DNA from: Nocardia sp. NBC_00403
GTDB taxonomy: Bacteria; Actinomycetota; Actinomycetes; Mycobacteriales; Mycobacteriaceae
Length of the DNA stretch: 64,000 nucleotides
Assembly (NCBI RefSeq): GCF_036046055.1
Contig: NZ_CP107939.1
Location: 3,038,001 to 3,102,000, forward strand
Direction of reading: 5' to 3'
Shown here: one piece after another, positions 35,942-41,728 of the stretch
How the letters are laid out: the number at the start of each line of letters is the position of its first letter
Numbering within the stretch: position 1 is the stretch's first letter
Program-made: the position numbers and the translations under genes
The notes under the pieces: model-generated
What the model was told of the DNA's origin: nothing
Seen by the model: the letters and a program-made list of their open reading frames with translations, nothing else
Databases searched by the model: none

Positions 35942-36073
35942 GGCTCGAGGGGAGCGAGCCGGTCGGTCGAGCACGGGGATTATGCAGACCCAGGACTACA
36001 GACCGGCAGTGTCCGCCGGTTTCACAACGCGGCGAGAGGCCCTCCGCGGCGGCGCATGAGAGGTGCATGTCCG

Positions 36074-38881
36074 ATGAGTAGCGGGCCTGGGGTAGACCGT
36101 CGACCAGGCGACAGCGACAACCGGGACGAAGATCGGGATGACGAGCCGCAGGTGCTCGATGCGAGGCTGCTGCCTGCGACGCTGTGTTGTTGGGGTGCAA
36201 CGATTGTGGCGGTCACCGGTGGGTGGGTGGTTGGGCTTGTGGTCGCGGCGGGGTTGTCGGTGCTGGCGATCGGGTTGTGGGTGTTGTTGCTGTGGGCGGT
36301 TGCGCACCGCAGTGAACGTTGGCGGGTCGTCGCGGTGGTCGCGCTCGCGGCGGTGTTGCTCGGGATGGGGTTCGCGATTGCGGGGGCGTGGCGGGAGCAT
36401 CGGGTGGCCACGCATCCGTTGCGGACAGCGATCGGTGCGTCGGTGCGGGTTGTGGCGACACCGATCGATGATCCGAAACCGGTGCGCATCAATTCGTTCG
36501 CGGGCGAGCGGCGGTGGACGTTGCGCGCGGAGCTGCGCGAGTACCGGCAGGGTGAGGTGACCGTGCGGACCGGTGGTGTGGTGGTGATTCTGGCTTCGGG
36601 TGTGGAGTGGGCGCAGCTATTGCCCGGCGGGCCGGTCGAATTCCGCGCGCGAATAGATCAGCCGTGGCATCAGGATCTTTCGGTTGTCACGTTGCGGGCA
36701 CTCGGTCGGCCGGTCGTGGTCGGAAGGCTGCCGTGGTGGCAACGCGTGGCCGCCGCGGTGCGTACGGATTTCGCTGCCTCTGCGTCTCGTGCCCTACCTG
36801 CGGATCCAGCCGGACTGCTGCCCGCACTCGTCGTGGGGGATACTTCGGCATTGCCTGAGGACGTGCGGGAAGAGTTCAAAATAGCTGGGCTGCAACATCT
36901 GTGCGTCGTCAGCGGCGCGAACTTCACTATTCTGCTCTCGGTAGTGCTGCTCGTAGTGCGTGCCCTCACCCTCGGTCCACGTCTTGCCGCGACGGTCGCA
37001 GCGGCGGCGTTGCTCATGTTCATTGTGCTGGCGCGGCCGGATCCCAGTGTGTTGCGGGCCGGTGCGATGGGCGCGATCACCTTGTTGGCACTGGTCACCG
37101 GTCGCAGGAAGCAGGCGTTGCCCGCGTTGTGCGCGGCGGTTCTCGGACTGCTTGCGATATGGCCCGAGCTGGCCGTGCGGGCCGGTTTCGCGCTGTCCGT
37201 TGTCGCCACGGCCGGCTTGATACTCCTCGCGCCCAGCTGGGCCGATTGGCTGCGCGCCCGCGGTTGGTGGCGGATGCCTGCCGAAATCGTCGCCGTGTCG
37301 GCAGGCGCGTTCGTGGTGACCACTCCGCTCATGGTCGCGCTGACCGGACAGCTCAGTCTTGTGGCAGTTCTCGCGAATGTTCTTGTCGCACCTGTTGTCG
37401 CGCCGATCACGGTGATCGGCGCAACCGGTGCTGTGTTGTCGTGTATCTGGCAACTGCCCGCCGAATTGGTTCTGCGCTGTGCGGGACCACCGATGTGGTG
37501 GCTGCTGACGATTGCCGAACACGCGGCAGGAATACCCGGCGCGACGATCGACCTTCCCGGTGGCTTGTTCGGCGGCTCGATCACCGCCGCAGTCGTTGCG
37601 GTATTCGTGTGGTCCCTACGGTCGGCCATCGTGCGCCGACTCGCGGCCGCAATATTTCTCGGGATAGCGGCCGTCTTGTTTCCCCTCCGGATCTGGCACC
37701 CATGGTGGCCACCATCCGGCTGGGTACTTGCCGCCTGCGATGTCGGACAGGGAGACGGGCTAGTCCTGTCGATCGGCGATGGTGCCGCGATAGTGATCGA
37801 CGTCGGCCCGGAACCCCGTGCCATCCGCACCTGCCTCGATCGCCTCCATATCACCCGAATCCCCCTGCTTGTCCTGACCCACCCGCACGCCGACCACATC
37901 GGTGGCCTCACCGGCGCACTCGAAGGACGCTCGGTCGCAGCACTGGCCGTCGGCCCCGGCGAACTCCCCGCAGTACCCGGTTCGCGTCACATCGCGGCCA
38001 GCGTCAACGGCGGCACGGGTGATGACACCGATAGTTCAGCGCCTGCGGCCAACTCGCACGTCACCCCCGGTGACCTGTGCGGCTCGATCAGCGACCCGCG
38101 TGCCGCGACCGATGGCCCGCGCGCCTCGCCTAGTGAACGGTGTGCCTCGATCGGCGACCAGTGCGGCATGACGGAGGGCTGCCCACACGCCACAGTCGGC
38201 GACCCATGCAGCGCGACCGACGATCCGCCTCCGAGAACCGCCGGCTCATGCGCCATGACCGGTGATCCGAGTGCGACGACGAGTGGGCCGCGTGCCTCGT
38301 CTGGCGATCCGCACGGTTCGACCAGTAAGCCGCGGGCTCCGACCAGCCACGCGCGTGCCGCAACCAATGGGCCGGTCCAGGTCGCAACCGCTGCCGCGCG
38401 GGCAGGTGTTCCTGTTGTGGAACTGTCGGCGGGATACGTAATGAGCTTCGGCGCAGTCGAATTGATGGTTCTCGCGCCGACAGCATCTCTGCGAGCGTCA
38501 GCGGGCACCGCGGCAGCCGACGACGCCAACGACCGGTCGGTCGTCATCGCCGCCACCACGCCCGCGGGCCGGATCCTGCTGACCGGCGACATCGAGGCTC
38601 CCGCCCAACACCGCCTATTGAACTCCGGAGCCCCGGTCCAGGCCGACATCCTCAAGGTCCCACATCACGGATCACGAACCACCGCAGCGGAATTCTTGGC
38701 CGCCGTCCACCCTCGCCTCGCGATAGTCAGCGTCGGCGCGGACAACACCTTCGGTCACCCGCATCCCGGCTTACTCGCTGACTTGGCACGCGCCGGCAGC
38801 GGCGTGATCCGCACAGACCAGTTGGGCGACGTCGTGATCACCGGTGCAGGATCGAAAATGCAAGTGGTGACATTGCGCTGA
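36074..38881 (+). CDS. comEC: ComEC/Rec2 DNA-uptake channel with repeat insertion (935 aa)
   Basis: Multi-spanning N-terminal part with the competence domain (LPALVVGDTSALPEDVREEF, LQHLCVVSGANFTILL). A C-terminal metallo-beta-lactamase-like domain follows: CDVGQGDGLVLSIGDGAAIVIDVG, LTHPHADHIGG, and LKVPHHGSRTTAAEFLAAV. Between the HxHxDH motif and the rest of this domain lies an unusual segment (about residues 666-767) of heptapeptide repeats rich in Asp, Pro, Cys and Thr. The start with GAGAGG upstream is used; an ATG six codons earlier is possible. A diverged copy of the 3' end lies at 39489-39650. Confidence 0.92.
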   Translation: MSSGPGVDRRPGDSDNRDEDRDDEPQVLDARLLPATLCCWGATIVAVTGGWVVGLVVAAGLSVLAIGLWVLLLWAVAHRSERWRVVAVVALAAVLLGMGFAIAGAWREHRVATHPLRTAIGASVRVVATPIDDPKPVRINSFAGERRWTLRAELREYRQGEVTVRTGGVVVILASGVEWAQLLPGGPVEFRARIDQPWHQDLSVVTLRALGRPVVVGRLPWWQRVAAAVRTDFAASASRALPADPAGLLPALVVGDTSALPEDVREEFKIAGLQHLCVVSGANFTILLSVVLLVVRALTLGPRLAATVAAAALLMFIVLARPDPSVLRAGAMGAITLLALVTGRRKQALPALCAAVLGLLAIWPELAVRAGFALSVVATAGLILLAPSWADWLRARGWWRMPAEIVAVSAGAFVVTTPLMVALTGQLSLVAVLANVLVAPVVAPITVIGATGAVLSCIWQLPAELVLRCAGPPMWWLLTIAEHAAGIPGATIDLPGGLFGGSITAAVVAVFVWSLRSAIVRRLAAAIFLGIAAVLFPLRIWHPWWPPSGWVLAACDVGQGDGLVLSIGDGAAIVIDVGPEPRAIRTCLDRLHITRIPLLVLTHPHADHIGGLTGALEGRSVAALAVGPGELPAVPGSRHIAASVNGGTGDDTDSSAPAANSHVTPGDLCGSISDPRAATDGPRASPSERCASIGDQCGMTEGCPHATVGDPCSATDDPPPRTAGSCAMTGDPSATTSGPRASSGDPHGSTSKPRAPTSHARAATNGPVQVATAAARAGVPVVELSAGYVMSFGAVELMVLAPTASLRASAGTAAADDANDRSVVIAATTPAGRILLTGDIEAPAQHRLLNSGAPVQADILKVPHHGSRTTAAEFLAAVHPRLAIVSVGADNTFGHPHPGLLADLARAGSGVIRTDQLGDVVITGAGSKMQVVTLR
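38069..38373 (+). repeat. 21-bp minisatellite inside comEC
   Basis: About 14 in-frame 21-bp units such as GGCGATCCGCACGGTTCGAC and AGTGGGCCGCGTGCCTCGTC, encoding heptapeptides like GDPSATT, SGPRASS, GDPHGST and SKPRAPT. One extra codon (Val) breaks the register after the sixth unit. Confidence 0.8.
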
Positions 38882-38965
38882 ATTGTGGCTCGGTTCTCTC
38901 CGCCATGGTGGTCGGCAGCCCTCAGCGAATCCAATCGCACTCGGAGACGTTGTCCGGAGATCTTT

Positions 38966-39009
38966 CTGGGCCTTCATCCAGTGCGTTTACGCACTGGATG
39001 AAGGCCCAG
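38966..39009. terminator. 20-bp perfect inverted repeat after comEC
   Basis: Arms 38966-38985 and 38990-39009 are perfectly complementary around a TTTA loop. It lies between comEC and the convergent peptide gene; no T-run follows, so bidirectional termination by stem strength is inferred. Confidence 0.6.
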
Positions 39010-39056
39010 GATGGACTACTTTCGACCCACCTCTGCGGGCTTCTCAGGCGGTGGCC

Positions 39057-39245
39057 TCAGATGCACCAGACGACACTGCCGAGAGGGAAGCACAGTGCGA
39101 TTGAGCCACCGGTGGTTGGAGTGGCCGAGGTCGACGTGGGCTCAGCGGATGGAATCGTGCTGGCCGAAGCGGCGGGAGCTGCGATCACACCCAGCGACAA
39201 AGCCATGGCGGTCGCGGCGAGGATTTTTACGGTTCTGGTAGCCAT
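39057..39245 (-). CDS. Secreted two-cysteine peptide, copy 1 (62 aa)
   Basis: A Sec signal peptide (MATRTVKILAATAMALSLG… ending APAASA) is followed by a short Ser/Thr/Pro linker and the C-terminal 16 residues GSIALCFPLGSVVWCI. Predicted cleavage after ASA leaves about 34 residues with no Lys, Arg or His. Two Cys separated by eight residues could form a disulfide loop. AAGGAAG precedes the ATG. The second copy at 39923 is identical in the last 16 residues despite three third-position base changes, arguing for selection on the protein. No family is recognised; a signal, bacteriocin-like or envelope peptide are possibilities. Confidence 0.75.
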   Translation of the reverse strand: MATRTVKILAATAMALSLGVIAAPAASASTIPSAEPTSTSATPTTGGSIALCFPLGSVVWCI

Positions 39246-39488
39246 TTTGCTTCCTTTGGTTTGGATAAACTTCTTACTTCAATAACTCATCACCCTCCTC
39301 AGTGTGGCCCCGGCAGTCGACGAATGCCAGACTGCGTCAAGAAATACCGCTGACCTCTTTTATCCCCTATAGTCTGGCCGAAGGTGATCACCTGGGTTCG
39401 GTGTATGATCGTTGCGCACTGGAGACCGAAGCTTATTCGGAATGTTGCCGAGCAAACTGAAAAGAAACACTTTCTTCATCCTTTGCTC

Positions 39489-39650
39489 GCACCTCGCGAT
39501 AGTCGGCGTCGGTGTGGACTACGCCTTCGGTCACCCGCGTCCCGGCCTACTCGCCGCTCGGCGCCGTCGGCAGCGGCGTCATCCGCACCGATCAGTCGGC
39601 GACATTGTGATCATCGGTGCAGGATCGAAAGTGCGAGTGGTGACATTGCA
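39489..39650 (+). pseudogene. comEC': Diverged copy of the comEC 3' end
   Basis: Reads LAIVGVGVDYAFGHPRPGLLA, matching the comEC C-terminus LAIVSVGADNTFGHPHPGLLA, and ends with the same GAGSKxxVVTL. A small deletion shifts the frame in the middle. It lacks the rest of comEC. Confidence 0.8.
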
Positions 39651-39682
39651 ATCGGTCAGATCTCCTTAGTAACGAGGAGGCG

Positions 39683-39790
39683 GCTCGGCATGCGGGAGCA
39701 ACGAAGAAAGCTCAGCATGTGGGAGCAACGAGGAGGTAGCTCGGCATGCCGGAGCAACGTGAATGCGGCTCAGCATGCGGGGCTGAGCAT
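39683..39790 (+). repeat. Four imperfect 27-29-bp tandem repeats
   Basis: Units begin at 39683, 39710, 39739 and 39768 with GCTC(G/A)GCATG followed by G/C-rich sequence and GAGCAACG; the last is shorter. Confidence 0.65.
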
Positions 39791-39922
39791 TCGGGTATCA
39801 CAACCGCAGACCACAGCCGAAACGATAGCTGGACCAGCAAAAACGGCGAAGTTGTGCGCCGAAGTGCATATGCGGAGATGATCGCATCAGCCCCGCCTCT
39901 GCGGGCTTCTCAGGCGGTGGCC

Positions 39923-40108
39923 TCAGATGCACCAGACGACACTGCCGAGGGGGAAGCACAGCGCGATTGATCCATCCGTGGGTGTGGCCGAGGTCGACGT
40001 GGGCTCAGCGGATGGAACCGTGCCGGCTGATGCCGCGGGAGCGGCGATGACACCCAGGGACAAGGCCATGGCGGTTGCGGCGAATATTTTGATGGTTTTG
40101 GTAGACAT
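39923..40108 (-). CDS. Secreted two-cysteine peptide, copy 2 (61 aa)
   Basis: Same architecture as copy 1: signal peptide MSTKTIKIFAATAMALSLG…, APAASA cleavage site, linker TVPSAEPTSTSATPTD and the identical C-terminus GSIALCFPLGSVVWCI. AAGGACG lies four bases before ATG 40108; a longer frame to 40156 has no better site. The signal-region changes are conservative (V/I, R/K, L/F). About 230 bases upstream are also duplicated, so both genes probably respond to the same regulator. Confidence 0.75.
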   Translation of the reverse strand: MSTKTIKIFAATAMALSLGVIAAPAASAGTVPSAEPTSTSATPTDGSIALCFPLGSVVWCI

Positions 40109-40602
40109 TTTGCGTCCTTCGGTGTGGATATATTTCCGACTGTAATAACTCATCACCCCTCTTCAGTCTTCACCCAGCCGATGACGAATGCCAGCCGGGG
40201 AAAGAGATACCGTTGACCTCTTTTATCCCCCGAAAACCGGCCGAAGGTGACTACCTGAGTCCGGCCTTGATCGTTGCGCATTGGATACCGAAACTTGCTC
40301 ATAATGTTTCTGAGCAAAACTGAAAAGAAACACGGTCGGCTCGGCTGGCGTCTACCCGCGTCTCGCGATAGCCGACAATCGCTGGACCGGCCACTACACC
40401 AAAGTTGCGAGCTGGCGTGCTGACAATCTGACGGACAGCTTGGATCAGAGGCATGTGTGACAAACGTCGGGGGGTTGATCGGGTGTTGCTCGTCTGGGCC
40501 CGGGCTGCTCTCTTTTGCCGTCGGTGTCGGCAGCTCTGGCCGGGACAGCGCGCAGCGTGGTCATGGCAAAAGCTGTCGGTGGCGGACCGTAGGATCGGGC
40601 CC
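40109..40602. other. Duplicated upstream region of peptide 2 and spacer
   Basis: The first 230 bases repeat the region upstream of peptide 1. At 40354-40415 a short comEC-like stretch (CGCGTCTCGCGATAG) and a block matching 39812-39870 mark a third, partial copy. 40416-40589 shows nothing; TAGGAT at 40590-40595 is a likely -10 box. Confidence 0.6.
40590..40595 (+). promoter_or_regulatory. -10 box upstream of the holA leader repeats
   Basis: TAGGAT ends seven bases before GTG 40603, the first repeat-borne start codon; leaderless-type spacing. Confidence 0.45.
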
Positions 40603-40683
40603 GTGAGCGAGCGCGGCGAGCCAATCAGGGACATGGCGCCTTCGGGTGCGCTGGAGCCGAGTGCCGGCGAGGTGCGGTCATGA
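40603..40683 (+). CDS. Micro-ORF 1 in the holA leader (26 aa)
   Basis: GTG AGC GAG CGC … TCA TGA, encoding [15 protein letters not shown]… and ending with a 4-base ATGA overlap to the next micro-ORF. It is the first of two 77-bp repeat units. The TAGGAT box is seven bases upstream. Whether a functional peptide or just a coupling device is made is unknown. Confidence 0.4.
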
Positions 40684-40756
40684 GCGAGTGCAGCGAGCGG
40701 ATCATGCCGCGGTCGGTTGCCCGCACCAGGGAGCTCAGCGTCAGCGGGGTGCGGTC
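40603..40756 (+). repeat. Two 77-bp imperfect tandem repeats leading into holA
   Basis: Units 40603-40679 and 40680-40756 each start (G/A)TGAGCGAG and end GGTGCGGTC. A third unit start at 40757 is the holA start codon itself (GTGAGCGAGCGCGC). Confidence 0.75.
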
Positions 40757-40760
40757 GTGA
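40680..40760 (+). CDS. Micro-ORF 2 in the holA leader (26 aa)
   Basis: ATG AGC GAG TGC … TCG TGA, encoding [17 protein letters not shown]…. Its stop overlaps the holA GTG by four bases (GTGA), so ribosomes could pass from micro-ORF 1 to micro-ORF 2 to holA by termination-reinitiation. Confidence 0.4.
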
Positions 40761-41728
40761 GCGAGCGCGCTGCGGCGGTGCACTTGGTTCTCGGCGAAGA
40801 AGAGTTGTTGATCGAGCGGGCGGTCGCGCAGATCGCTGCGCAGGTTCGGGCGGGTGCGCCGGATGGTGACGCGGTGCCGGTTGATCGGTTGCGGGCGGGG
40901 GATGCCAGCACTGCTGAGCTGGCCGAGTTGTTGAGCCCCTCGTTGTTCGCCGAGGAGCGGTTGATCGTGTTGGAGTCGGCGGCCGAGGCGGGGAAAGATG
41001 CCGTCGCGGTGATCACCGAGGCCGCCGAGGATCCGCCCGAGGGTGCGGTGCTGGTGGTGTTGCATTCGGGAGGCGGCCGGGCCAAGGCGCTGGCGCCTGC
41101 GCTGCAGAAGATGGGCGCCGAGGTGCACAACTGCGCCAAGCTGACCAAGGCGACCGAGCGGGTCGAATTCGTGCGCAACGAGTTCCGGGCCGCGGGGGTG
41201 CGGGTGTCGGGCGAGGTTGTGCAGGTGATGTTGGAGGCGGTCGGTTCGGAGCTGCGTGAGCTCGCCGCCGCGTGTTCGCAGCTTGCCGCCGACACCGGCG
41301 GCAAGATCGACGTCGCGGCCGTTCGCCGCTATTACTCCGGGAAAGCGGAGGTTTCCGGCTTCGACGTCGCCGAGTTGGCCGTCGCGGGCGACCGTCCCGG
41401 CGCGATGGAAGCACTGCGCTGGGCCAATGATCGCGGCGTCCCGCATGTCCTCCTCGCCGACGCACTCGCCGACTCCGTACACACCATCGCCCGTGTCGGC
41501 TCCGCGGGTCGCGGCGACCCCTTCAAGCTGGCCCAACAGCTGGGCATGCCCCCATGGAAAGTGAAGAAAGCCCAAGCCCAGGCCCGCGGCTGGAGCTCGG
41601 CAACCATCGGCTCCGCCCTCCAAGTGGTCGCCACCCTGAACGCCGACGTCAAGGGTGGCGCCGCCGACCCCGACTACGCCCTGGAACACGCTCTCACCCG
41701 GATCCTGGACCTGCACTCCGCAGGTTGA
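40757..41728 (+). CDS. holA: DNA polymerase III delta subunit (323 aa)
   Basis: Loads the sliding clamp as part of the clamp loader. Sequence features: [48 protein letters not shown], and the collar domain ending [27 protein letters not shown]. Order comEA-comEC-holA matches Rv2415c-Rv2413c. The GTG start lies in a 77-bp repeat array, so its first residues (VSER) may derive from the repeat. Confidence 0.93.

Follow-up and report, generated by a model that had tools for sequence, protein, structure and literature searches.

Two short genes lie on the minus strand of the window, the whole 64,000-nucleotide stretch of DNA analysed here. Copy 1 (39057-39245, stop codon included) encodes a precursor of 62 amino acids and copy 2 (39923-40108) one of 61 amino acids, as delimited from the list of open reading frames and from relatives. 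Longer in-frame starts, giving 77 and 76 amino acids, are possible for copy 2; the start shared by the family is at 40108. A Shine-Dalgarno-like stretch was seen by eye at each start codon (AAAGGAAG / GAAGGACG). Both precursors combine a signal-peptide-like start, a Ser/Thr/Pro linker and identical last 16 residues (GSIALCFPLGSVVWCI). The putative Sec-type signal peptide of copy 1 (39162-39245, minus strand) comprises residues 1-28, with cleavage placed by eye after ASA. The C-terminal segment, hereafter called the hairpin for its predicted fold, occupies 39060-39107 in copy 1 (GSIALC-FPLGSVVW-CI) and 39926-39973 in copy 2, both on the minus strand. Between the copies, 45 of its 48 bases match, and the differences comprise three synonymous and no nonsynonymous changes. 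These results bear out an earlier, sequence-only reading of the locus, which had described two minus-strand genes of this size, each with a signal peptide, whose identical C-terminal 16 residues differ at three third codon positions. We regard both genes as real rather than as chance open reading frames, the decisive evidence being that the family is present in other genomes.

The pair is flanked by comEC (36056-38881, plus strand), which matches the Pfam models Competence and Lactamase_B, and by a plus-strand holA-like open reading frame (40646-41728), which matches the C-terminal domain of the DNA polymerase III delta subunit (Pfam). On the 3' side of the Lactamase_B match (residues 570-685), the comEC frame contains a low-complexity Cys/Asp/Pro-rich stretch (38081-38375) in which direct repeats of ~33 bases recur in degenerate form at spacings of 45-108 bases; this stretch is possibly an insertion. 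A perfect 21-bp inverted repeat (38966-39009), detected by repeat search, lies between the convergent comEC and copy 1 and may act as a two-way terminator; it was not flagged by a scan for T-run terminators. No sigma-70-like promoter was flagged in 38800-40600, and nothing in the window reached the gathering score of an Rfam model.

The two peptide genes form the inner part of a tandem repeat with a unit of about 863 bp. The unit is marked by a duplicate of the comEC 3' end, decayed and frameshifted, that lies between the peptide genes (39492-39649, plus strand). Its source, identified from the open reading frame and repeat comparison, is the 3' end of comEC itself (38716-38881, plus strand), with which it shares 139 of 163 aligned bases (85%). 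A third, short comEC-tail-like fragment (40340-40371, plus strand; 81% over 32 bases) lies behind copy 2 at an offset equal to that of the larger remnant behind copy 1, which suggests that it is probably the relic of a third, mostly lost duplication unit. The regions upstream of the two copies are 80% identical (178/223) and the signal-peptide codons 83% identical (70/84). As these values are similar to that of the comEC debris, the likeness of the upstream regions, to which the sequence-only reading had drawn attention, is real and is explained by segmental tandem duplication, and is not by itself evidence of selection. Two segments stand out from this background, the hairpin codons and a 31-base segment that starts with the stop codon and is identical at 30 positions. 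The interval separating the comEC remnant from copy 2 also holds a 36-base direct repeat in four degenerate copies (39668-39788), spaced 27-29 bases apart.

In a tree of 141 distinct members of the family, the window pair are sisters (support 97/84), as are the tandem pairs of two other genomes, G103 and G126 (96/91 and 95/82), so that lineage-specific tandem duplications are found in three genomes. In the G103 pair (locus L072, 5950-6965), the signal peptides are alike and the hairpins differ (GSIALCFPLGSVVWCI vs GSVILCFPFGSVVFCF), the second ending in Phe in place of Ile; a strong stem was seen by eye 3' of the first gene. The proximity to comEC, also remarked on earlier, holds at the window locus only: in the 205 loci fetched, whose flanks mostly span 1.5-6 kb, comEC was found near a family member nowhere else, and it was rejected as a partner gene. 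Since the duplicated unit carries a decayed comEC 3' end, the comEC neighbourhood looks incidental, and we take the comEC tail to be a passenger of the duplication.

Distribution and genomic context of the peptide family

To assess the distribution of the peptide, several queries were used. Copy 1 alone matched 82 of 150 Nocardia genomes at E<=0.01. Of the 401 genomes in the family-rank group, 75 were matched by a 24-row alignment at E<=0.001, some only through the signal peptide. With a 20-row alignment, 109 of 148 sampled Nocardia genomes were matched at E<=1e-4 and 85 at E<=1e-8; the best E value of the remaining 24 lies above 1e-8, and these may be signal-peptide matches. Matching Nocardia genomes carry one to five matches each (E<=1e-4). 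The genome of the window has five members, namely the two window genes and three further loci, all of which show the features that define the family: a signal-peptide-like start, a linker, the pattern GSxxxC-turn-C and one hydrophobic last residue. The other 39 of the 148 Nocardia genomes gave no match at E<=1e-4, which makes it unlikely that the peptide is essential throughout the genus. Close relatives were found at four named loci, all in Nocardia, where the peptides are identical to ones in the sampled genomes of the genus.

Beyond Nocardia, 10 of 28 genomes of one genus (g23) matched, and none of 148 genomes of another (g29), in a set that contained no positive control. In wider samples, 15 of 298 genomes of the order matched at E<=1e-4 and 4 of 296 genomes of the class at E<=1e-5. 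No full-length match was found outside the family-rank group (f1) in either sample; six order-level matches outside it were disregarded, as they cover at most model positions 1-46 of 57. The homologues with a conserved C-terminus that the sequence-only reading had proposed to look for thus exist in other genomes, and together they point to an apparently unnamed family of tiny, predicted secreted peptides that Nocardia shares with some close relatives. The fetched loci yielded 144 members, among them 141 distinct peptides. Of the 147 rows above 12 bits, three had been dropped: L192, in which the frame runs on past the turn and the second Cys is lost at its usual place, and which is probably a decayed family member; L121, which fell below a 36-bit cut although both Cys are present; and L114, which is a signal-peptide match only.

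No confident Pfam or NCBIfam match was obtained for the window proteins or for 20 tested members, and a sequence search of the PDB gave no credible match (lowest E 0.058 for the full profile, 5 for the tail), in line with the earlier statement that no family could be recognised. The matches obtained were weak and none was consistent across members; the best were Pfam DUF963 (E 0.01) and NCBIfam mini_HHHH (E 0.0022), each confined to one of the 20 members, and an NCBIfam pilin model (E 0.0089, three of the 20) that scored 14-15 bits against a cut-off of 95. The chaplin ChpA-C domain (PF03777) matched neither the two window proteins at E<=1 nor the 20 members at E<=0.1; a genome search with it matched 0 of 98 Nocardia genomes, but also 0 of 14 control genomes, and so gives no evidence that the genus lacks chaplins. 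Copy 1 had no match on plasmids or phages. The literature searched, which left most subscription papers out of reach, yielded no published description of the hairpin family.

The genes surrounding the family members were also compared, using a crude gene caller and the nearest gene on each side. Among 144 members, 108 distinct combinations of upstream and downstream neighbours were found. The largest neighbour cluster comprises 15 members and represents one syntenic group; no cluster of nearest neighbours spans the family, and a conserved neighbour was rejected as a partner. No recurring neighbour was identified as an immunity or transport gene in this comparison. On this evidence the peptide genes appear to behave as stand-alone units. 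Nine members (L054, L092, L130, L144, L160, L165, L169, L175 and L188) adjoin a gene that, from the start of its sequence, we take to be malate dehydrogenase-like.

An unsupervised motif search in 108 dereplicated upstream regions revealed a motif that reads roughly TTGAYNNTTYCNTTGTCTGG. It scores 14 or more in 26 of the 108 regions, 93-108 bases before the start codon, and all 26 carriers are of the C-X8-C form described below, in differing surroundings. The mean score over all 108 regions was 11.3, compared with 8.2-8.5 in shuffled sets, which kept base composition alone and were run from two starts each rather than the six used for the real set. In 148 genomes, the corresponding pattern has 20 exact matches (19 genomes with one), all of which begin about 92-110 bases 5' of a family match by coordinate comparison, and the reversed control pattern has none. 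As the pattern was written from family sequences, matches at the family arise by construction, and the informative part is that no exact matches occur elsewhere; with about one chance match expected from a rough base-composition estimate, this is modest evidence for exclusiveness. The element thus recurs in part of the family. It is missing or degenerate in most members, including both window copies, which have no exact match and score only 6-7: the region upstream of copy 1 (39246-39470, minus strand) holds at best a degenerate form, and that of copy 2 (40109-40333, minus strand) a degenerate element at -103 with a score of 6.0.

Anatomy of the peptide and selection on the hairpin

The mature part contains exactly two Cys in all 144 members, with the boundary of the mature peptide set, here and in the charge and dN/dS counts, by a simple rule. 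The number of residues between the two Cys is 8 (86 members), 12 (46), 13 (11) or 14 (1), and never 9-11; a single residue follows the second Cys in 143 of the 144. Compared with X8, the X12 form gains two residues on either side of the turn, the symmetry that a cross-strand disulfide bridge in a hairpin requires; in most members of the 13 form the turn contains Pro-Gly-Ser. Side chains alternate in volume: counted from the Cys, the odd-minus-even difference is positive in 144 of 144 members, which are related and so are not 144 independent cases, with a mean of 60.6 A^3 compared with -0.1 +/- 1.9 in 500 shuffles. Charge is almost absent: of 2408 hairpin residues, only 35 are charged or His. 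As had been noted for the window peptide, basic residues are generally missing from the mature part: Lys and Arg are absent there in 129 of 144 members, and the net charge is zero or negative in 140, so the net positive charge typical of cationic beta-hairpin antimicrobial peptides is not seen.

The AlphaFold2 model of the mature window peptide has strands at residues 21-27 and 30-33, leaving the turn at Gly28-Ser29, and would place Cys24 opposite Cys33 with a pLDDT of about 80 at this position; overall, pLDDT was 69 and pTM 0.27, with six sequences in the input. Mutual information between positions gave an adjacent pair (7,8) as the strongest and a cross-strand pair (2,7) as the second, and cross-strand covariation, being weak, was set aside as support for the hairpin. 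Judged from the sequences and the model, the C-terminal 16 to 22 residues resemble a greasy, nearly uncharged two-stranded beta-hairpin stapled by one disulfide. The C-X8-C form, with only about five residues per strand, was found in Nocardia itself alone (86 of 86, with genus labels assigned by hand), and the tree places its origin in one, weakly supported change (59/88).

The ratio dN/dS, pooled over 58 non-overlapping close pairs, was lowest in the hairpin (0.17); signal peptide and linker both gave 0.26, the linker figure covering alignable codons only and leaving length variation outside. If the comEC remnant is used as an equally old neutral reference, the lack of nonsynonymous change in the window hairpin pair has a P of about 0.003. 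The hairpin thus appears to be under purifying selection and to be the most constrained part of the precursor. The sequence-only reading had suspected selection on the C-terminus from the two copies and had named a dN/dS near 1 as evidence to the contrary; the values are well below 1. This anatomy is well supported, and the function is what we infer from it.

Candidate functions and comparison with known systems

The sequence-only reading had offered a signal, a bacteriocin-like agent and an envelope peptide as possible roles. They are not equally likely, and the envelope peptide is favoured, because a product that is small, predicted to be exported, nearly uncharged, stapled, greasy on one face, often encoded in several copies, partnerless and conserved in its core fits it better than a bacteriocin or a pheromone. 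We tentatively favour an exported, self-associating envelope peptide that would work like the chaplins but is not one. Starting from what was computed (the reality of the genes, the family, the two-Cys constraint, strand alternation, length symmetry, purifying selection, the partial upstream element and the lack of a conserved partner), we infer Sec export, disulfide formation, assembly and a surface role. The precursor would be exported by Sec, cut after Ala-Ser-Ala and then oxidised outside the cytoplasm. The mature product would consist of a Ser/Thr/Pro/Ala-rich spacer and the C-terminal beta-hairpin, in which two strands joined by a type II'-like Gly-Ser turn would bring the two Cys face to face, with one aliphatic or aromatic residue after the second. 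One face of this hairpin would be continuously hydrophobic and the other small or weakly polar, with almost no charge. Such hairpins would most likely self-associate edge to edge on the mycolic-acid-rich surface, or insert into it, and in this way serve as structural or surface-active peptides of the envelope, working as chaplins do and unrelated to them by descent. Against this reading, the strands of the C-X8-C form probably lack the length needed to span a membrane and are shorter than the chaplin domain, and relatives are also found outside Nocardia, in genera of which some probably do not form aerial growth.

The main rival, in our view unlikely, is that the peptide inserts into the mycolic-acid outer membrane as a small pore or as a porin accessory like PorA/PorH. 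An amphipathic beta-hairpin, with longer strands in the C-X12-C form, and the restriction of full-length matches to one family-rank group would suit such a role; the probable shortness of the C-X8-C strands does not, nor does the lack of a confident Pfam or NCBIfam match, and PorA and PorH are themselves helical and, although exported, not known to carry a classical signal peptide. Less likely still is a secreted signalling peptide, or pheromone. The small size, predicted export, stable ring-like core, several paralogues and an upstream element that recurs in part of the family are all consistent with it, but its core is not diversified between close relatives and the many distinct contexts offer no recurring neighbour, although a receptor could be encoded elsewhere in the genome. 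For a bacteriocin as for a pheromone, one would expect diversifying cores or else a linked gene for immunity, transport or a receptor, and neither was seen, which makes both less likely. We consider a bacteriocin-like or host-active secreted peptide improbable: a predicted exported disulfide hairpin and the lineage-specific tandem duplications would agree with it, but the zero or negative net charge of nearly all members, the lack of a recurring linked gene, the lack of plasmid or phage matches for copy 1 and a core that is conserved rather than diversifying argue against it.

The position of the conserved part, a C-terminal tail behind a variable Ser/Thr/Pro linker, could also suggest that it serves for sorting or anchoring and is not a functional peptide in itself, which is very improbable. 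A tail-only profile search of 98 Nocardia genomes, which gave 81 matches, some of them inspected individually, largely refutes it: the longest open frame matching the end of the tail has 188 codons and holds a 63-aa precursor (L081), and a single 310-codon frame matched tail positions 1-14 only. That the genes are chance open reading frames in a decaying duplicated segment, as the comEC pseudogene debris in the unit might suggest, is hardly credible and is refuted by family-wide conservation and purifying selection.

The envelope-peptide reading can be taken further. Nocardia and some relatives may have their own surface-coat system of uncharged, disulfide-stapled beta-hairpins, evolved independently of chaplins, partly run from its own promoter element, and with hairpin lengths that change only in steps keeping the cross-strand bridge in register; taken jointly, this is possible but somewhat unlikely. 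If true, it would provide a natural series of hairpin building blocks for the mycolate surface. Should the peptide prove to be a cell coat, it would be relevant to the way in which hydrophobic aerial or surface growth arises in mycolate bacteria, and to the question whether these rely on a system of their own as opposed to chaplins. In any case, the family is compact, widespread and multi-copy in a clinically and environmentally important genus, apparently with no curated model. Its predicted fold can be read from sequence alone, through length steps, alternation and one disulfide, and it should therefore be easy to synthesise and test.

Several known systems resemble the hairpin family in part. 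Lactococcin 972-type bacteriocins are Sec-exported, and the likeness lies in a small bacterial peptide with predicted Sec export; the present family differs in having neither such a Pfam match nor a recurring neighbour as a candidate immunity gene. Protegrin, arenicin and thanatin are cationic, disulfide-stapled, amphipathic beta-hairpin antimicrobial peptides. The same stapled amphipathic hairpin is predicted here, but with a mature part that in most members is free of Lys and Arg. Corynebacterial PorA and PorH are tiny envelope peptides of mycolic-acid bacteria, a description that would also suit the hairpin family in its favoured reading; the latter is predicted to be beta, has a signal-peptide-like start and shows no confident Pfam or NCBIfam relation to them. 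Chaplins (Streptomyces) are beta-prone, and their short forms have a Cys pair. Like these small exported hydrophobic peptides, the present family has several paralogues per genome; its members are small, predicted to be exported, from an AxA signal-peptide site seen by eye, and hydrophobic in the predicted hairpin. It differs from chaplins in having no PF03777 match in the members tested, in a hairpin of only 16-22 residues, and in its own C-X8/12/13-C architecture closed by one terminal hydrophobic residue.
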